Assembly: GCF_001469875.2 (NCBI RefSeq)
Contig: NZ_LOPW02000018.1
Location: 1-64,000, forward strand
Direction of reading: 5' to 3'
Origin: Haloferax marisrubri
GTDB lineage: Archaea; Halobacteriota; Halobacteria; Halobacteriales; Haloferacaceae
Length of the DNA: 64,000 nt
The position numbers and the translations under genes are program-made. How positions within the stretch are numbered: the stretch's first letter is position 1; every line of letters starts with the position of its first letter. Of this stretch, positions 12,756 to 21,490 are shown one piece after another. The notes beneath the pieces are model-generated. The model was given only the letters and a program-made list of their open reading frames with translations, was not told the DNA's origin and ran no database searches.

Positions 12756-13766
12756 ATGACGACACTCGAAGACATCGACCTGGACTTCGTGCCGTTCGGC
12801 GAGACGGGCCTCCAGACGAGCGAACTCCAGTTCGGTACCTGGCGGTTCGGCAAGGAGACCGAACAGGGGAACGTCGAAATCGGCGAGGAGCGCGCGCACG
12901 AACTGCTCGACGCCTACGAGGCGGCCGGCGGGCGCTTCATCGACACCGCGGACATCTACGGCGGCGGCGCGAGCGAGCGCTGGATCGGCGACTGGCTCGA
13001 AGACCGAGACCGAGAGCGGTTCACTATCGCGTCCAAAATCTACTGGCAGATTCGCGACGGCGACCCGAACAGCCGCGGGACGAACCGGAAGAACATCCGC
13101 CATCGTATCGACGCCCTGCTCGACCGCCTCGACACCGACTACGTGGACGTGCTCTACATCCACCGCTGGGACGACGAGACGCCCACCCGCGAGATGATGA
13201 AGACGCTCAACGGCCTCGTCGAAGACGGGAAAGTCCACTACCTCGGCGCGTCGACGCTCCGACCGAACGCGTGGAAGGTGGCGAAGGCGAACGAAATCGC
13301 CCGCGCCGAGGGCTGGGAGCCGTTCACCGTCGCCCAGCCGCGGTACAACCTCGTCGACCGCGAAATCGAGGGGGATTACTTGGAGATGACCCGCTCGTAC
13401 GGCATCGCGGTCTGTCCGTGGAGTCCGCTCGGGCAGGGCTTCCTCACCGGGAAGTACACCCGCGAAGACGGCCTCACCGGCGAATCCCGCGCCGCGGAGT
13501 CCAGCCGGTTCGAGGAGTCGTATCTGACCGAGGAGAACTTCGACGTGCACGACGAACTCGACGCAGTCGCCGAGGAAGTCGATGCGACGCCCGCCCAGAC
13601 GGCGCTCGCGTGGCTCATGCACCGCGACGGCGTCACGGCCCCCATCGTCGGCGCGCGCACGATCGAACAACTGACCGAGAACCTCGAAGCCGCCGCTATC
13701 GACCTCTCGGACGAGCAGGTCGACCGCCTGACCGAGGCGAAGCCAGACCCCTACGCGGGGCTCTAA
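12756..13766 (+). CDS. Aldo/keto reductase
   Basis: This 336-residue protein is an aldo/keto reductase. The catalytic tetrad is visible: D63 in FIDTADIY, Y68 in the same motif, K94 in FTIASKI, and His in VDVLYIHRWDD near residue 141. QPRYNLVDREIEGDYLEM and PWSPLGQGFLTGKY match the NADPH-binding barrel region of the YakC/potassium-channel-beta-like AKR branch. It should reduce a carbonyl using NADPH in the cytoplasm; the physiological substrate is not evident. It is monocistronic, convergent with the GNAT-fold gene. Confidence 0.92.
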   Translation: MTTLEDIDLDFVPFGETGLQTSELQFGTWRFGKETEQGNVEIGEERAHELLDAYEAAGGRFIDTADIYGGGASERWIGDWLEDRDRERFTIASKIYWQIRDGDPNSRGTNRKNIRHRIDALLDRLDTDYVDVLYIHRWDDETPTREMMKTLNGLVEDGKVHYLGASTLRPNAWKVAKANEIARAEGWEPFTVAQPRYNLVDREIEGDYLEMTRSYGIAVCPWSPLGQGFLTGKYTREDGLTGESRAAESSRFEESYLTEENFDVHDELDAVAEEVDATPAQTALAWLMHRDGVTAPIVGARTIEQLTENLEAAAIDLSDEQVDRLTEAKPDPYAGL

Positions 13767-13785: not shown

Positions 13786-14805
13786 TCACACGCCCTCGCG
13801 AATCGTTTTGTAGAGATGCGCGAGCGTCTTCATCCCCGCCGCGTTCCGTTCGAGGCTGTAGAAGGGGTGGAGTTTGGGGTTGAACTTCGCCTTGTATCGG
13901 TTGATGCGGCGGTTGTTCGCGCCGACGAGGTCGTAGGTCGTCCGCCCGCGGTCCATCGCGTCACGCATGATGTGCCAGTCGAGCAGGTCGTTGACGGCAA
14001 GGTCTGTCTCCACGTCGGTCCGCACGCCGCCCTGCCACCGCGACACCGTCCCATTGTAGTCGACGACGAGAATCCCGCCGACGAACTCGCCGTCGATTCG
14101 GAGGACGTAGGGGCGAATCTGCCCCTCCGGGAGGGAGGTGTAGAGGTCCCTGACGAACTCCGGTGACGACCGATAAGAGATGCCCTGGGCTTCGTAGCGC
14201 GAGGCGACCTGTTCGACGATTTGCTCGATTGCTTCGGGTCCGCCCTCCTCGATGGTGTACGCGTCGTCGGGCGCGTTCCGGACGTTCGACCGGGCGTCGC
14301 TACTGAAGCTCATGAGTACGTCGTCGACGCCCGGCGAGAGGTCGACGTGGTAGGTGTACTGCGGCGTTATCGTGTAGTCGTTCCACGAGAAGGCTCTGAG
14401 GTCGTCGTACCGACCGTCGAGCCGGATGTGGGTGTAGCGCGGTCGAATCTCGTCGCGGACCCATTCGAGGCAGTCGTCGATGAACTCGTGGTGTCGGCCC
14501 TCGCGCTTTCGCTGTTTCATGTGGTCCATGTTCAAGAGGACCGGACCGAGATACGCGACGCGAAGCTCCGGCGGTGGCGAGAACACCGTCGCTATCGGTC
14601 CCTTGTCGATGCGGAACATCGGGAACAAGCCGACGACTTCCTCGCCTTTTCGTCCGACGAGCGGAACCAACTCCGCGCCGGCGTGCGCCGCCTGAATCTC
14701 CAGCGCGTCGTACTGATGGAACGCGTTGCCATGCGGGGACTGTTCGACGAACGCGTCCCAGCCGTGGACGTCGTCTCCAGTCGCCCGCCGAACCTCGATG
14801 CTCAT
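13786..14805 (-). CDS. GNAT-fold protein of the FemAB-like type
   Basis: This 339-residue cytoplasmic protein has the double-GNAT architecture of FemAB/Acetyltransf_6 proteins. An N-terminal half contains SPHGNAFHQYDALEIQ and an acceptor-like region, and a C-terminal half contains GGILVVDYNGTVSRW and a final YKAKFNPKLHPFYSLER. Family members transfer amino acids or acyl groups to peptidoglycan precursors or sugars and often sit in polysaccharide loci. Archaea have no murein, so an acyl or aminoacyl transfer to a surface glycan or lipid is more likely. The ATG at 14805 (MSIEVRR) is chosen over an upstream in-frame start because the preceding 15 residues lack domain character. No neighbouring glycan genes support a pathway. 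Confidence 0.8.
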   Translation of the reverse strand: MSIEVRRATGDDVHGWDAFVEQSPHGNAFHQYDALEIQAAHAGAELVPLVGRKGEEVVGLFPMFRIDKGPIATVFSPPPELRVAYLGPVLLNMDHMKQRKREGRHHEFIDDCLEWVRDEIRPRYTHIRLDGRYDDLRAFSWNDYTITPQYTYHVDLSPGVDDVLMSFSSDARSNVRNAPDDAYTIEEGGPEAIEQIVEQVASRYEAQGISYRSSPEFVRDLYTSLPEGQIRPYVLRIDGEFVGGILVVDYNGTVSRWQGGVRTDVETDLAVNDLLDWHIMRDAMDRGRTTYDLVGANNRRINRYKAKFNPKLHPFYSLERNAAGMKTLAHLYKTIREGV

Positions 14806-15026
14806 GAGTAAGGTGCCTGAACTGTCGCGTCCGACCCCTTTGTTATGCACCCGTTATGAGGGTTATTTCGGCTGATTCGGACGAATGACAACCGCGTTCC
14901 GGCTGGCGTTAGGAATAACTAAACAGAACAAAGAGAGGACATGAAATCAGAGGGTTCGGGTGTTCACGGAGCAAGGAAGGGGGACGGAGGTTGTCAGAAC
15001 CGGCTGTGCCCGCCGTCGCGGGGACT

Positions 15027-15043
15027 ACCCTCGCGTTTGTAAA
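15027..15043 (-). repeat. Solitary ORB-like element away from the origin
   Basis: Read on the minus strand, the 19 bases from 15042 down to 15024 are TTACAAACGCGAGGGTAGT. That is 18 of 19 matches to the repeat TTACAAACGCGAGGGTGGT that forms the array at 19.8-20.2 kb. It lies about 4.7 kb from the array and 47 bp before the ATG of the PPOX-type gene. Chance recurrence of such a match is very unlikely, so it is probably an Orc1/Cdc6 binding site. Confidence 0.75.
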
Positions 15044-15089
15044 ACCGGGCCGAAGCCATCGTTTTACGCCGAGAGACCGATATCCGAGT

Positions 15090-15482
15090 ATGACTGGCCT
15101 CTCCGAACGCGCCGCGTCGCTCGTGACGAGCGAACCGCTCATGGCGCATCTCGCGACCAGCGTCGACGACCGACCCCACGTCGCTCCCGTCTGGTTCGAC
15201 TACGTGGACGACCGCGGGGTAATCGAGGTGCTCACCACGGGCCGGAAACTCGCCAACATCCGCGAGAACCCGCGCGTCGCGCTCTCCATCCAGAAGGACG
15301 AGAAGGGACAGGCGCAATGGAAGGTGACGGTTCTCGGAACGGCCACCGTCGTCGCCGACGAGGACGCCCTGCGAGACGCCACGCGGCGAATCAACCGGAA
15401 GTACGGGGCGGAAGAGTCGGCGTGGCCCGAGAACGAACTCGTCCGAATCTCGGTGGGAACCGCGACGGTCAGCGAGTACTGA
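15090..15482 (+). CDS. PPOX-class flavin-binding protein
   Basis: This 130-residue protein is a split-barrel FMN-binding protein of the pyridoxamine 5'-phosphate oxidase-related class. LMAHLATSVDDRPHVAPVWF (about residues 16-35) is the family's opening strand pair and KLANIRENPRVALSI the flavin-contact strand. Such short archaeal members bind FMN or F420; the substrate is unknown. ATG at 15090 is the natural start, as the upstream in-frame extension runs through non-coding-like sequence including the solitary ORB element. The gene is convergent with the sodium:solute symporter gene 46 bp downstream. Confidence 0.85.
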   Translation: MTGLSERAASLVTSEPLMAHLATSVDDRPHVAPVWFDYVDDRGVIEVLTTGRKLANIRENPRVALSIQKDEKGQAQWKVTVLGTATVVADEDALRDATRRINRKYGAEESAWPENELVRISVGTATVSEY

Positions 15483-15528: not shown

Positions 15529-17058
15529 TCAGTCGGACGACGGCGCGTCGGTTCGGCCGTCGTCGAACCGCCGAATCTCCCGCGAGAGCCGACCGAGGTC
15601 GAACCCGGCGTCCGTGAGTCTGGCGACGACGAGCGACGCCGCCGTCGACACCACGAACGCCCCGCCGAAGGAGGTGAGATACAGCGGGTCGGCGGCGGGG
15701 AGCAGCCCGCCGACGACCGGAATCGACGTGATGACGCCGCGGAGGTCGGGGAAGAACGCGAGGCCGACGGCGAGCCCGGTGAGACTGCTCGCGAGCGCGC
15801 CGAGGCCGGTGATTCGCGTCGAGTACAGCCCGTAGACGAGCGGGAAGGCGACGGCCGCGCCGAGCAGGTCGGCGAAGAAGAACAGCCGGAGAACGCTCTG
15901 GGCCCGGAGACTGACGTAAATCGCGGCGACTGCGACGGCGATTGTGAGCGCCCGTGACCCGAGCGCGAGGCGGCGGTCGCTCGGCTCCGCGAGCAGGCGG
16001 GCGAGGTCCGCGGTCACGAGGCTCGAAAGCGCGTTGAACAGCGTGTCGATGGAACTCATCACGAGCAGGAGCGCGAGGAGGACCGCCGCGAGGACGAGCC
16101 ACTCGGGGAACGCTTCGCCGAGGAGGACGAAGAAGGCGGCGTCGGCGTTGTAACCCGCGCTCGCGGGGTCGGTGACGACGGCGGCGTTGCCGACCGCGAC
16201 GACGCCGAAGAAGGCGGTGACGAACACGATGGCACCGTTGGCGAGCGCCGCGGTCCGGAAGCTCCGCCCGACCGTCTCCGACGAGTCGGCCGCGTAGATG
16301 CGTTGCCACCACGTCTGATTGATGAGTTCCGCGCCGAGGATGGCGAACGCGAGCGCGAGACCGAACTGGAGGCCGGCGACCGCGCCGAGGTCGAGGAGCG
16401 CGGGGTTCGTCGCCGTGATACCGTCGATGGCGGCGGCGGGACCGCCGAGCGCGACGAGCGCGCCGACGAACGCGAGCAGTAAGAGTGGGATGACGACGGC
16501 CGCCTGGACCGCGTCGGTCGCGATGCTGGCACGGAGGCCGCCGTAACTCGTGTAGAGCAGGACGAAGCCGCCGACGAGGAGCGCGGTCTGCCACTGCGGG
16601 ACGCCGGCAACGAGCGCGAGCGCGCCCGCGATGCCGGTCAGCTCGGCGGCGAGGAAGATGAACATGTAAAGCGCGCTCACGAGGAGGACGAAAGCGTACA
16701 TCGCGGTCCCGTAGCGGGCGTGGGCGTACTCGGTCAGCGAGTGGCCCTCGGGGATGAGTTCCCGGATTCGCGGGCCGAGGCGGGCGTAGACGAGCATCGG
16801 GACGGCCTCGCCGACCGCGTAGCCGACGACGGCCGCGATACCGAAGCTCGCACCCGCTTCGGGGGCCGAAAAGAGCACCCAGACGCCCATGACGGACGCG
16901 ACGAGCGTCGCCGTCGTTCGCCGACTCCCCGTAGAGTCGCGGGCGCTGATGAGGTCCTCGACGGAGCCGACGCGGCCGCGGGAGAACCACACGCCGACGC
17001 CGGTAAACGCGACGAGCGTCGCGACGGTCAACCCGAGCGCGACGGTCGAACTCACCAT
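15529..17058 (-). CDS. Sodium:solute symporter, candidate thiamine-precursor importer
   Basis: This 509-residue protein has about thirteen membrane segments and belongs to the sodium:solute symporter (SSS) family. SYGGLRASIATDAVQA near residue 170 is the conserved SSS signature region, and LVMSSIDTLFNALSS near residue 340 resembles the second sodium-site helix. Its start overlaps the stop of the upstream TenA-type gene by 7 bp, the third gene of a tight leftward operon with two TenA proteins. SSS family proteins beside tenA have been proposed by comparative genomics as importers of thiamine or its pyrimidine moiety. I apply that by context; sequence alone would allow pantothenate or proline-like substrates. 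Confidence 0.85.
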   Translation of the reverse strand: MVSSTVALGLTVATLVAFTGVGVWFSRGRVGSVEDLISARDSTGSRRTTATLVASVMGVWVLFSAPEAGASFGIAAVVGYAVGEAVPMLVYARLGPRIRELIPEGHSLTEYAHARYGTAMYAFVLLVSALYMFIFLAAELTGIAGALALVAGVPQWQTALLVGGFVLLYTSYGGLRASIATDAVQAAVVIPLLLLAFVGALVALGGPAAAIDGITATNPALLDLGAVAGLQFGLALAFAILGAELINQTWWQRIYAADSSETVGRSFRTAALANGAIVFVTAFFGVVAVGNAAVVTDPASAGYNADAAFFVLLGEAFPEWLVLAAVLLALLLVMSSIDTLFNALSSLVTADLARLLAEPSDRRLALGSRALTIAVAVAAIYVSLRAQSVLRLFFFADLLGAAVAFPLVYGLYSTRITGLGALASSLTGLAVGLAFFPDLRGVITSIPVVGGLLPAADPLYLTSFGGAFVVSTAASLVVARLTDAGFDLGRLSREIRRFDDGRTDAPSSD

Positions 17059-17912
17059 CGGCCGTCACCCGGTTGGGAAGACCCGTCGGTCGAGTGTGAG
17101 GACGCGGCCGAGGTTGCAGTCGCGGTCGAATCGCCGGACGGAGCCAGTTCGTACGCCTCGTCGAAGAACGCGACCTCCAGTTCGACCGTGCGGCGGAACA
17201 ACTGTTCGAGCCGCCGTTGTCGGCGCGGTGACGCGGCCGCGCCCTCGCGGTCGAGTTCGGTCCGGAGCCACTCGACGAACGCCGCGAAGTCGTCGATTGC
17301 GTGGAGGTCTATCCACTCGGAGAGGTAGAACCGCGAGGGCGATTCGCCGGGATGGGTACCGGCGTCGGCCGCGTCGGTCGCCCACGACAGGTAGACCCAC
17401 TCGGCAGGGACGAGTACCGCCAGCGTCTCCGCGTACCCGCCCTGCCCCGCGGCGCGTTCGAGGAGGTCGATGAAGGCGCGCGTCGTCGGCGTCGTCTTCG
17501 GGTCCGAGTAGACGGACTGGGGCACGTCGAGCGCGTCGAACGCCCGCAGGAAGTAGTCGTCCTCGTCGTCGGTCAGGACGCCGAGGAACGAGACGAGTTC
17601 CGACTTCGACTCCATGGTCGGCGCGGTGCCGACGGCGTGGCCGAAGACGCCGACGAGCGTCTCCACGAAGGCGTAGTCCTGCACGAGATACTGCCTGAAC
17701 ACGTCGTCTGCGAGTTCGTCGGCGGCGAGTTCTCGCGTCAGTCGGTGAGCGGTCGCGTCGTCCCACGAGTCGCCCGCGCGCTCGCGGAGCCAGTCGGTAA
17801 AGCGCGGGTCCGACCGCGACGCGGCGAACTCGTCGTACGTCTCGGGGGTCGATGAGTCCGCGTCGGGTGAGTCGGGCGAACCAATCGAGTCTGACTGGTC
17901 GGCGTCGGTCAT
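17052..17912 (-). CDS. TenA-family protein without the catalytic cysteine (TenA_E-like)
   Basis: This 286-residue protein has a TenA/thiaminase II helical domain at about residues 35-250 with extra acidic, Ser/Thr-rich tails at both ends. QDYAFVETLVGVFGHAV matches the first active-site helix. At the position of the thiaminase cysteine it has LVPAEWVYLSW, so the nucleophile is missing, as in the TenA_E group. TenA_E enzymes in plants act on amino-HMP or formylamino-HMP in thiamine-breakdown salvage. The ATG at 17912 overlaps the stop of the cysteine-containing paralogue as ATGA, giving coupled translation. Together the two TenA proteins would deliver hydroxymethylpyrimidine for thiamine re-synthesis. 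Confidence 0.85.
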   Translation of the reverse strand: MTDADQSDSIGSPDSPDADSSTPETYDEFAASRSDPRFTDWLRERAGDSWDDATAHRLTRELAADELADDVFRQYLVQDYAFVETLVGVFGHAVGTAPTMESKSELVSFLGVLTDDEDDYFLRAFDALDVPQSVYSDPKTTPTTRAFIDLLERAAGQGGYAETLAVLVPAEWVYLSWATDAADAGTHPGESPSRFYLSEWIDLHAIDDFAAFVEWLRTELDREGAAASPRRQRRLEQLFRRTVELEVAFFDEAYELAPSGDSTATATSAASSHSTDGSSQPGDGRW

Positions 17913-18574
17913 AGCGGCCACTCCTCCCGCCGCCACGCGGCGTCCCAAAACAGGTACTCGTACTGCGCCGACGTGCGGAACAGGTCGCGGTAGCGCTCGC
18001 GGTCCGACTCGGTCGCGCTCGCGGCCACGTCGTCCATGAGCGCCTTACACCAGTCGGTGAGTTCGGTGAACTCGTCGCCGGCGTACATCTCGACCCACGC
18101 GGCGTACTGGTCGTGATCCGGGGTTCCCGCGTCGGCGAGTCGGAGACCGGTCTCGTTGAACCCCCACATACACGGGAGGAGGGCGGCGACGATGTCGCCG
18201 AACGAGCCGAGCGTCGCGGTGCGAACGAGGAAGTCCGTGTAGGCCCGGGTCGTCGGTGACGGCGTCGTCGCTTCGAGTTCGTCGGGCTCGATGCCGAACT
18301 CGGCGGCGTAACTTCGGTGGAGGTCCATCTCCTCGTTGACAGTCGATTCGAGGAGGCTCGCGAACGTCCCCATCGAGTCGAGCGTCGGAGCCTTCGCGGC
18401 CCCGAGCGCGAAGAGGCGGCTGTACTCGACGAGGTAGACGTAGTCCTGCCGCACCCAGTAGCGGAACGGCTCCTCGTCGAGGCTCCCCTCCCCGAGTCGG
18501 ACGACCATCGGATGGTCGAGGATGGCCGACCAGAACTCGTCGGCCTCGTCGCGAATCGTGTCTGTGAACGCCAT
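17909..18574 (-). CDS. tenA: TenA-type thiaminase II / aminopyrimidine aminohydrolase
   Basis: This 221-residue protein has the full TenA length. Residues align with the Bacillus subtilis active site at nearly identical numbering: D44 and Y47 in WVRQDYVYLVEYSRL, Y112 in RAYTDFL, C135 in LLPCMWGF, and a Glu near 206 in YEYLFW. F139 replaces the usual second tyrosine. The family hydrolyses aminomethyl-pyrimidine breakdown products of thiamine to hydroxymethylpyrimidine in the cytoplasm. It is first in a leftward operon with a cysteine-less TenA paralogue (ATGA overlap) and an SSS transporter, which makes a thiamine-salvage module convincing. Confidence 0.92.
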   Translation of the reverse strand: MAFTDTIRDEADEFWSAILDHPMVVRLGEGSLDEEPFRYWVRQDYVYLVEYSRLFALGAAKAPTLDSMGTFASLLESTVNEEMDLHRSYAAEFGIEPDELEATTPSPTTRAYTDFLVRTATLGSFGDIVAALLPCMWGFNETGLRLADAGTPDHDQYAAWVEMYAGDEFTELTDWCKALMDDVAASATESDRERYRDLFRTSAQYEYLFWDAAWRREEWPL

Positions 18575-18847: not shown

Positions 18848-19414
18848 ATGTCGCACGTGAACGCCGTCGGGTCCATCGAGATTCAGAACGTCGTCGCTTC
18901 AACGGAAGTCCCGGTCGAACTCGACCTCGAACGACTCTCGCTCGACATGAACGGGACCGATTACGACCCCGAGAACTTCCCCGGACTCGTGTATCGAACC
19001 CGAGACCCGAAGTCGGCGTGTCTCGTCTTCCGGTCGGGAAAAGTCGTCTGTACCGGCGCGGACAGCGTCGGCGACGTGAGTACGGCCATCGAAACGCTGT
19101 TCGACGAGTTCACCGAACTCGGGATACCGATTCCCGACGACCCGGACATCACCGTCCAAAACATCGTTTCGAGCGCCGACCTCGGGGCGGCGCTCAACCT
19201 GAACGCGCTCGCTATCGGCCTCGGTCTCGAAGCCGTCGAGTACGAACCCGAGCAGTTCCCCGGACTCGTCTACCGCCTCGACGAACCGAGCGTCGTCGTC
19301 CTCATGTTCGGCAGCGGAAAAATCGTGATTACAGGAGCGAAGCGGATTGCCGACGCCGAAGCGGCGCTCGAAGTCGTCGACGAGGACGTTCGCGAACTCG
19401 GACTGCTCGGGTGA
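18848..19414 (+). CDS. tbp: TATA-box binding protein
   Basis: This 188-residue protein is a TBP with the usual two direct repeats of about 90 residues. Repeat one has IEIQNVVAS and FPGLVYRT; repeat two has ITVQNIVSS and FPGLVYRL, each followed by the conserved FxSGKxVxTGA strand (FRSGKVVCTGA, FGSGKIVITGA). It should bind promoter TATA elements with TFB. Haloarchaea carry several TBP and TFB genes, some on secondary replicons, allowing alternative transcription programmes. It lies immediately left of the replication origin. Position 1 starts MSHVNAVGSIEIQN, a short N terminus typical of archaeal TBPs. Confidence 0.97.
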   Translation: MSHVNAVGSIEIQNVVASTEVPVELDLERLSLDMNGTDYDPENFPGLVYRTRDPKSACLVFRSGKVVCTGADSVGDVSTAIETLFDEFTELGIPIPDDPDITVQNIVSSADLGAALNLNALAIGLGLEAVEYEPEQFPGLVYRLDEPSVVVLMFGSGKIVITGAKRIADAEAALEVVDEDVRELGLLG

Positions 19415-19524
19415 GCACTCGGCAGGTACTCGGTGGTCGTTGAGAGACGGGGTGGCGTACTGACGTGTTGACGTGGCTGGGAAGACGGTAAACCGGAGGC
19501 CGATTCCGTCTCCTTTAGTCTCTG

Positions 19525-19590
19525 ATTCGTTGTTTGTGGTTGTGTTGTTGTATTGTTATGTTATCGTGTTATTGTATTGTTGTGTTGAGT
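19525..19590. other. T/G-rich low-complexity tract, candidate unwinding element
   Basis: The top strand here is almost purely T and G, with repeated variants of TTGTATTGTT and TGTTATTGTATTG. It contains few C residues while the surrounding DNA is GC-rich. Strong strand asymmetry and low melting stability are typical of duplex unwinding elements. Its location about 200 bp left of the first ORB repeat is compatible with, but does not prove, that role. Confidence 0.5.
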
Positions 19591-19596
19591 GAGAGA

Positions 19597-19617
19597 ACTA
19601 GTAGTTTAGCTACTAGT
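19597..19617. repeat. Inverted repeat next to the T/G-rich tract
   Basis: Perfect 8-bp arms ACTAGTAG and CTACTAGT are separated by TTTAG. The element directly follows the low-complexity tract at the origin. It could be a protein-binding dyad or a small hairpin. Confidence 0.55.
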
Positions 19618-19782
19618 GATAGTTTGGTGTGTCAGTCGGGAGAACGGCATCACGTCGTTCGATGCGTGTCGAGATGTTGAGGTGCCGAGGTGTCGAATTG
19701 CTGATGTGTCGGAGTGTGGTGGCTGTTCTTCGAGAGGCGGGTGTTGTTCACAATTCGTCCGTCTTCGCTCGGGAGGACACAC

Positions 19783-19854
19783 ACACCCCCCTCGCGTTTG
19801 TAACGGCTACGCCAGTCCCTAGGGGAATTCGACACACCCCCCTCGCGTTTGTAA
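19783..19854 (-). repeat. ORB-like repeats, left pair (minus orientation)
   Basis: Two copies at 19783-19803 and 19834-19854 share a 21-base sequence whose minus-strand reading starts TTACAAACGCGAGGGG and continues GGTGT. They are oriented opposite to the copies on the right. The core TTACAAACGCGAGG is the same as in the right cluster. Inverted ORB pairs around an origin are the normal haloarchaeal arrangement for Orc1/Cdc6 binding. Confidence 0.88.
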
Positions 19855-19916
19855 ATCTAGGGGCAAAACCAACCGACAACACCCTGCTCTCCGACCCACC
19901 CCCACACCGATTCGCG

Positions 19917-20216
19917 TTACATTCGCGAGGGTGGTGTGTCTGCACCGCCGCTCCCACCACTCGACGTTACAAACGCGACGGTACTCCCCCGCTCGATTAC
20001 AAACGCGAGGGTGGTCTCTCGGAGACCGAGTTACAAACGCGAGTGTACCCCCACCGACCCCATCTTCCTCGTGACCGTTTCGGCCGTTACAAACGCGAGG
20101 GTGGTGTCTGACGGTCTTACTTGCGCGATGCTACTCGTTGATCGTCGAATCCAAAACCGGGTCCGAAGTACCGTTCAAACGGCCGTATTTGTCGCTGTTA
20201 CAAACGCGAGTCCACC
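19917..20216 (+). repeat. ORB-like repeats, right cluster (plus orientation)
   Basis: Copies of TTACAAACGCGAGGGTGGT lie at 19997-20015 and 20087-20105 (perfect). Variants are at 19967-19985, 20031-20049 and 20198-20216. Degenerate copies are at 19917-19937 (TTACATTCGCGAGGGTGGTGT minus the last base is close to consensus) and near 20117. All share orientation toward orc1/cdc6. Spacing is irregular (about 30-110 bp). The last copy is 40 bp before the initiator start, so autoregulation of orc by Orc binding is plausible. Confidence 0.9.
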
Positions 20217-20257: not shown

Positions 20258-21490
20258 ATGACATCGGACGAGAGCGAGGGTGGGACTCGCGACCCGTTGT
20301 TCCGCTACGACCAGCCCATCTTCGCGAACGAGGATATCCTCAAAATCTCTCATCTCCCCGGTCCCGACAAGATTGTCGGCCGCGACGAGCACATGTCGAA
20401 AGTCGCACAGGCGCTCAACCCCGCCATCTTCGGACGCGAACCGACCCATCTGTTCATCTTCGGGAAGACGGGGTCGGGCAAGACGCTCACCGCCCGCCTC
20501 GTGAGCGAGCGACTCCAACACGAGGCGGTCCGCGAGGACGTCGACGTCCGAATCGCCGTCATCGACTGCGGCGAACAGCACACCGAGGCGTCGGTCATCA
20601 AGACGCTCGCCTCGCAGGTCAACGACCCGTCGAAAAGCGGGATGACGATTCCCGAGCGCGGGCTGTCGACCGGCGACTACTACAACCGACTGTGGCAGGT
20701 GCTCGACACCTGCTCCGACGTCACCATCGTCATCCTCGACGAGATCGACATGCTCCGCGACGACGAGGTGCTTCGGAAACTCTCGCGCGCGGGCGAGAAT
20801 CAAAAGATAGTGGACTCGCGTATCGGCATCATCGGCATCTCGAACAAGATCGACTACCCCGAGGAACTCACGGAGCGCGTCAAATCGAGTTTCGCCCACG
20901 ACGAACTCGTCTTCCCGTCCTACGACGCGAATCAGCTCCGCGAAATCCTCGAAAACCGGAAGGACGCGTTCAAGCCGGGCGTCCTCACCGACGACGTGAT
21001 TCCCCTCGCCAGCGCGCTCGCCGCCCAGGAACACGGCGACGCGCGGAAGGCAATCGACATCCTTCGGAACGCCGGCCGCATCGCGCGCAACGAGAGCGCC
21101 GAGACCGTCACCGACGACCACGTGCGGGCGGCGAAAGAAAAGAGCGAGGCCGACCGCTTCAGCGAACTCCTCGAAGGGACCGCCACGCAGTCGAAGGCCG
21201 TCCTCTACTCGCTCGTGCTCCAGACCGGCGGCCGAAAGACCGCCGAAATCACGACGAACAAGATTTACCGACAGTATCTCACGGTCGCCGACGACCTCGA
21301 CATGGACCAACTCTCCGAGCGCCGCGTGCAGGAACTCCTGCAGGAACTCGACTTCCTCAACGTCATCCAGTCGGAGGTCCGCGGGCGCGGCCGCGGGCAG
21401 GGCGTCCACGGGACCCACCGCCTCCTCGAAGACCCGGACATCGTCAAGCGGGTGCTCCTCCGGGACAGCCGTATCTCCACGCTCGAATAG
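20258..21490 (+). CDS. orc: Orc1/Cdc6 replication initiator
   Basis: This 410-residue AAA+ protein has Walker A GKTGSGKT (residues 69-76), Walker B VILDEIDML (158-166), a sensor-1 region IGIIGISNK, and the ORB-binding winged helix from about residue 320 (KAVLYSLVLQTGGRKTAEI onward). It binds ORB repeats next to its own gene and recruits MCM at the origin. The ATG at 20258 (MTSDESEGG) is chosen because upstream in-frame codons run through the last ORB copy and the TATA-like element. On H. volcanii pHV3 an orc gene marks the start of the replicon, and the gene order here agrees with that from memory. Confidence 0.97.
   Translation: MTSDESEGGTRDPLFRYDQPIFANEDILKISHLPGPDKIVGRDEHMSKVAQALNPAIFGREPTHLFIFGKTGSGKTLTARLVSERLQHEAVREDVDVRIAVIDCGEQHTEASVIKTLASQVNDPSKSGMTIPERGLSTGDYYNRLWQVLDTCSDVTIVILDEIDMLRDDEVLRKLSRAGENQKIVDSRIGIIGISNKIDYPEELTERVKSSFAHDELVFPSYDANQLREILENRKDAFKPGVLTDDVIPLASALAAQEHGDARKAIDILRNAGRIARNESAETVTDDHVRAAKEKSEADRFSELLEGTATQSKAVLYSLVLQTGGRKTAEITTNKIYRQYLTVADDLDMDQLSERRVQELLQELDFLNVIQSEVRGRGRGQGVHGTHRLLEDPDIVKRVLLRDSRISTLE

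Follow-up and report, generated by a model that had tools for sequence, protein, structure and literature searches.

Orc proteins bind ORBs (PMC3528665, PMC7776575), and ORBs that lie outside an origin and probably act by titration have already been described in a haloarchaeon. The passages of PMC3936714 on Haloarcula hispanica describe an ORB-rich element, oriC2D, which lies outside oriC2 and restrains initiation, likely by titrating Cdc6E. In Bacillus subtilis the removal of six DnaA-box clusters outside oriC leads to early initiation, though the review reporting this also states that none of significant role is known from this bacterium (PMC5295017). How each origin is restrained in archaea with several initiators is poorly known. 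Among titles and abstracts on ORBs or origins in haloarchaea or archaea, drawn largely from outside the subscription literature, none dealt with conserved single ORBs outside origins.

The locus under study lies in a stretch of 64,000 nucleotides (the window) at the start of contig C18 (NZ_LOPW02000018.1) of Haloferax marisrubri (genome G000). The contig comprises 558,626 bases. Its two end sequences sit side by side in a second Haloferax genome (G001), and the same holds for the corresponding contig of G009; the replicon is therefore very probably a closed circle of 559 kb. The initiator gene measures 1,233 bases, as does orc6 of H. volcanii pHV3 (201-1433; PMC2841640, Table 4), and its closest match in a plasmid collection belongs to a 344-kb H. 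larsenii plasmid (93% over 410 aa). The replicon is thus very probably a pHV3-type megaplasmid with an Orc6-type initiator, an assignment that draws on gene length, replicon type and the literature. The GC skew of the replicon gave no clear terminus. The features referred to below are:

12756..13766, plus strand: aldo/keto reductase (AKR) gene, which ORBs adjoin in other species
13786..14805, minus strand: FemAB/GNAT-type gene, divergent neighbour of the lone ORB region
15021..15042, no strand: 22-base run invariant in the alignment of eight genomes, the longest of the intergenic region
15024..15042, minus strand: lone ORB TTACAAACGCGAGGGTAGT, the subject of this report, recognised by motif match and invariant in 8/8 close genomes
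15060..15067, plus strand: TATA-like CGTTTTAC (CGTATTAC in G014), probably the PPOX-type gene's promoter; in 8/8 it follows the ORB at 17 bases
15090..15482, plus strand: PPOX-type gene (Pfam PNPOx_N, Pyridox_ox_2)
19500..19649, no strand: candidate unwinding element, an AT-rich stretch (GC 0.38-0.39) on the left side of the array
19785..19803, minus strand: array ORB
19836..19854, minus strand: array ORB
19917..19935, plus strand: array ORB
19967..19985, plus strand: array ORB
19997..20015, plus strand: array ORB
20031..20049, plus strand: array ORB
20087..20105, plus strand: array ORB
20198..20216, plus strand: weak array ORB adjoining the initiator gene, matrix score 14.5
20258..21490, plus strand: Orc1/Cdc6 initiator gene encoding 410 aa, its length that of the Orc6 (pHV3) type

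A sodium:solute symporter gene and two TenA-family genes (15529-18574), possibly a cluster for thiamine-precursor salvage, separate the lone ORB from the array. A gene for a TATA-binding-protein paralogue (window 18848-19414) directly adjoins the array; of the array loci compared, all but those of G003 and G005 share this neighbourhood. The same replicon also carries a second Orc gene (C18:252.1-254.3 kb), preceded by a ParA-like gene and accompanied by inverted repeats of a different sequence; two origins may thus be present on the megaplasmid.

The first-pass annotation of this DNA had placed the isolated repeat at 15027-15043. Its exact place is 15024-15042, the start lying three bases further left. 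The remaining particulars of that description hold. The site agrees with the origin repeats at 18 of 19 positions (TTACAAACGCGAGGGTAGT against array repeat TTACAAACGCGAGGGTGGT), a single base separating it from the two best array repeats. It is set off by 47 bases from the ATG of the PPOX-type gene at 15090 and by 4,742 bases from the first repeat of the array, which spans 19785-20216; relative to the initiator gene it lies 5.2 kb upstream. In its terminal part the lone ORB reads GGG and then TAGT, two array repeats show six G in a row there, and others read GGGTGGT. As expected of an Orc6/pHV3-type ORB, the lone site agrees with the repeats that adjoin the cognate orc gene. It has no partner: no further motif above matrix score 8 was found up to the array or 15 kb leftward, and this single ORB does not show the layout of a replication origin with an inverted ORB pair and an AT-rich element.

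With up to three mismatches allowed, the 19-mer has eight matches in the window against none in each of 100 shuffles. In the whole genome (3,904,985 bases, 26 contigs) there are nine (seven in the array, the lone site at 15 kb and TTACATTCGCGAGGGTAGT at C18:416344), and the reversed control pattern gives none. The 13-mer TTACAAACGCGAG occurs in seven exact copies genome-wide, all of them on this replicon; the lone site accounts for one and the array for the other six. A matrix scan of the whole replicon scored the lone ORB at 35.5 (maximum 35.6) and the far copy at 31.8, the reversed-matrix control reaching 6.8; these scores are slightly inflated, because the training set of the matrix, every site within four mismatches from 13 loci plus the window, itself comprised the lone sites and one site that is probably spurious. 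Shuffles, whole-genome counts and the controlled matrix scan together rule out a chance match. A scan of the replicon for the 19-mer had been proposed in the first-pass annotation, together with the suspicion that other copies may exist outside the window. Genome-wide, at up to three mismatches, the copies are concentrated in the array and not scattered in a chance-like manner, and there is indeed one strong lone copy elsewhere, at 416 kb on the same replicon.

Conservation was assessed in 15 Haloferax genomes. The exact 19-mer is present in eight of them (G000, G001, G002, G004, G009, G011, G013 and G014), 4.5-4.8 kb from the array; six of the eight are assigned to H. denitrificans, H. sulfurifontis, H. 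gibbonsii, H. massiliensis, H. prahovense and strain Q22. In the alignment of the FemAB-PPOX intergenic region all 19 ORB columns are invariant, against 102 of 270 columns elsewhere, and indels are numerous. A ninth genome of the same gene order, that of H. mucosum (G010), shows TTACATCCGCGAGGGTACT at this position. Each of its three changes is also found among the array repeats of the same genome (TTACATCC and GGGTACT variants), so the lone site varies as an ORB varies. Across the 15 genomes a site outside the array stands on the PPOX side in nine and on the AKR side in three; one genome has a decayed copy, and two have none. Letter-for-letter conservation amid changed flanks suggests that outlying ORB copies help control replication.

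The second lone ORB (C18:416344-416362) extends over the final codons and stop of a DUF7521 gene encoding 103 aa, whose neighbour is convergent. It is identical in all seven close genomes that possess the host gene (G013 does not) and sits in an invariant run of 38 bases extending past the stop codon. It uses the rare leucine codon TTA, which 12 genes of the window contain twice among their 371 leucine codons. The DUF7521 orthologues of G010, G003 and G005 have nearly the same peptide end, and the ORB is absent from them. Its distance from the array is 396 kb in H. marisrubri and 244 kb in G009. A further candidate, TTACATACGCGAGCATGGT at C18:552324 with its counterparts, was set aside: these sites lie in the leader and start of a gene and vary as ORBs. 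The TTACATACGCGA-type motif there stands just before and over the start codon and is partly kept in at least five genomes.

Other gene orders separate the ORB from the PPOX-type gene. In G003, G005, G006, G007 and G008 none of the five PPOX homologues has an adjoining ORB, the homologue of G006 having only the array nearby, 1.3 kb away; the site does not follow the PPOX gene wherever that gene is placed. The AKR gene, two genes away from PPOX in the window, is accompanied by one ORB in G006 (15.6 kb from the array), by one in G007 (15.8 kb from the array, between convergent genes) and by three tandem ORBs in G012 (on a contig too short to be placed relative to the array), in each case with no PPOX gene adjoining. 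The three ORBs of G012 (C399; L151 2268-2334) have an exact 24-base spacing and lie between the convergent 3' ends of the AKR gene and a large surface-type protein gene. In G008 a decayed ORB is found about 130 bases behind the AKR stop; PPOX-like gene fragments with an in-frame stop, probably a decayed copy, lie 4.3 kb left of its array (C3:36938-37205) and have no ORB. In G003 and G005 the AKR gene is on another contig and a lone ORB is absent. The AKR-side sites of G006 and G007 are on the strand opposite to the PPOX-side site. Their common descent with the latter is possible, but since distance and orientation differ, the two may not be one ancestral site. Array without satellite is the state of the H. 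larsenii and H. elongans type replicons (for the complete H. larsenii plasmid, only the array was found at up to two mismatches), and the satellite is therefore dispensable there. For G014, the weak ORB matches considered are those among the matches listed. Two TTACAAACGCGAGCGTACC copies in G007 coincide in part with reading frames, and the other isolated matches inspected (G006 C1:1820152, G012 C42:7560, G010 C13:92733) are in frames or were set aside.

Our preferred reading, held with moderate confidence, is that the lone site is a binding site for the replicon's own Orc6-type initiator, selected outside the origin, and that it serves as a satellite ORB controlling initiation at the array. 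Replication control is the best reading of a site that is ORB-like, rare in the genome, near an origin and not tied to one gene. The first-pass annotation had proposed an extra Orc1/Cdc6 site acting on gene expression, on replication timing or by titration. Conservation lends good support to the initiator-type site, a role in gene expression alone fits badly, and replication control or titration would fit the site better, although this is unproven. The Orc6-type protein (20258-21490) would bind the satellite ORB at 15024-15042. Orc held there could retain or pair initiator molecules in cis, either by titration or by handcuffing or looping with the array, and initiation or copy number of the megaplasmid might be damped or timed through the satellite-bound Orc. 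For titration, one site weighs little against eight or nine array repeats. A local effect, by pairing with the array or looping to it, or the combined action of several satellites is therefore more plausible than titration in bulk.

Among the alternatives, control of the adjacent promoter survives best, and we regard it as rather unlikely. Orc6 bound just upstream of BRE/TATA would activate or repress the PPOX-type gene, tying it to initiator level or to the replication cycle. The spacing from the ORB to the TATA-like box is fixed at 17 bases and that to the ATG at 47-48 in all eight close genomes, the indels falling on the other flank, and in Saccharolobus an Orc1 paralogue, Orc1-2, does regulate promoters (PMC9738581). 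The eight genomes are, however, close (AKR four-fold-site differences of 8-13% in sampled pairs), so that the unchanged 47-base spacing is weak evidence, and in G010 the ORB is separated from the ATG by 112 bases. The five ORB-free PPOX homologues and the AKR-side ORBs of G006, G007 and G012 further argue against a PPOX switch as the sole role, which we reject as the main reading. The G007 and G012 sites lie between convergent genes, which makes a promoter role unlikely for them, and the second lone ORB likewise stands at the 3' end of convergent genes. For the volcanii group, a promoter role may still be entertained on account of the exact 17-base ORB-TATA spacing in 8/8.

It is improbable that the sequence serves some other DNA-binding protein, whether a transcription factor or an Orc paralogue, and that Orc6 is not involved. 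The ten Cdc6_C matches of this genome would offer candidates, but the sequence is absent from every other origin array of the genome, and the second Orc gene on the same replicon adjoins repeats of a different sequence.

Still less probable is a remote start or loop partner, in which the initiator brings a distant single site to the array and replication begins or is licensed near that site. Plasmid R6K is a precedent for such an arrangement. The distance of 4.5-4.8 kb in 9/9 genomes with this gene order and a moderately AT-rich stretch at 14850-14949 (GC 0.47) would suit this model. Against it stand the absence of an inverted ORB partner at the site, an AT-rich flank that is shortened in three genomes, and the distances of 15.6-15.8 kb in G006 and G007 and of 244 and 396 kb for the second site. 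That the site is a relic, left over from a former origin or from an insertion that split the array, is very improbable: orientation is shared with the two left array repeats and neighbouring gene content varies among species, but all 19 bases are kept in eight genomes amid scrambled flanks, and the ninth shows ORB-type variation.

The satellite reading, to which we return, was set against a control for how unusual lone ORBs are, a search for the repeat of the chromosomal oriC1 in the same 15 genomes at up to three mismatches. It gave 83 matches, 31 of them core, 44 within 45 kb and eight elsewhere, against two in all for the reversed control. Several initiator sites thus lie near but outside this origin (44 of 52 non-core matches within 45 kb), and the pHV3-type replicon has one satellite at 4.7 kb and one far away. 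In 77.6 kb around oriC1 of H. marisrubri, 12 motifs exceed matrix score 6 and the reversed control reaches at most -0.1; by a rough composition rule, one of 11 motifs checked in this region lies in a coding-like frame. A site at about 38 kb lies between genes, and of 14 genomes aligned 11 keep it although its flanks have diverged; it is degraded in G006, and matches in G003 and G005 that resemble it were set aside, being in a different, coding place. Another, at 4.6 kb, falls within a reading frame in all nine genomes of its alignment, where selection on DNA and on protein are not separable. The single ORB-like motifs around oriC1 extend over C4:318619-386218, and one lies six bases upstream of the orc1 start codon. 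As the control also shows a halo of single sites, the lone site is one case of a pattern. We tentatively propose that oriC1 and the pHV3-type origins are ringed by a conserved halo of single dispersed ORBs spanning tens of kb, an archaeal counterpart of the bacterial DnaA-box clusters of which the 15-kb site would be a member, and that this halo might set the timing and frequency of initiation for each replicon.

Beyond the genus, a degenerate ORB with up to one mismatch has matches in 14 of 59 genomes of the family, three of the 59 being Haloferax. A sister genus was represented by three genomes, and in two of these the exact TTACATTCGCGACGGTGGTCC lies behind the same gene, in non-coding DNA and on contigs other than that of the array (G052 C17:118290 and G066 C42:54989). 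Another sister-genus set (G033 C7:59613 / G052 C17:135055 and G066 C48:11092) was set aside, since these sites fall within the reading frames of what appear to be genes.

Haloferax lends itself to genetic work, and a conserved single non-coding site of 19 bases can be deleted while the origin and all genes stay intact. Should lone ORBs tune initiation, a part of its control in multi-replicon, polyploid haloarchaea would be explained and defined targets given. Otherwise, something else must account for their conservation.

Several described systems resemble this arrangement in part. The Saccharolobus Orc1-2 regulon likewise involves promoters bound by an Orc1 paralogue; that paralogue is a non-initiator, however, and recognises a different motif, ANTTTC (PMC9738581). 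In Vibrio cholerae a distant initiator-bound site, crtS, controls a secondary replicon, but from the other chromosome, whereas the Haloferax satellites are on the replicon itself (PMC11711613). The E. coli locus datA also binds the initiator away from oriC and restrains initiation; it comprises five DnaA boxes with IHF and promotes DnaA-ATP hydrolysis (PMC5295017). The DnaA-box clusters of B. subtilis resemble the oriC1 halo in being initiator sites that lie outside the origin and, to judge by the title of the primary study cited in PMC5295017, close to oriC, but they are clusters and belong to a bacterium. A further likeness is to oriC2D of Haloarcula hispanica, where ORBs outside the origin of a haloarchaeon are proposed to limit initiation by holding the initiator (PMC3936714, in its account of this element). 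There, 11 ORBs are clustered directly behind cdc6E. In Haloferax, single ORBs lie 4.5-16 kb or much further away, the lone ORB is a single one upstream of the initiator gene, and the nearest approach to a cluster is the group of three ORBs in G012.
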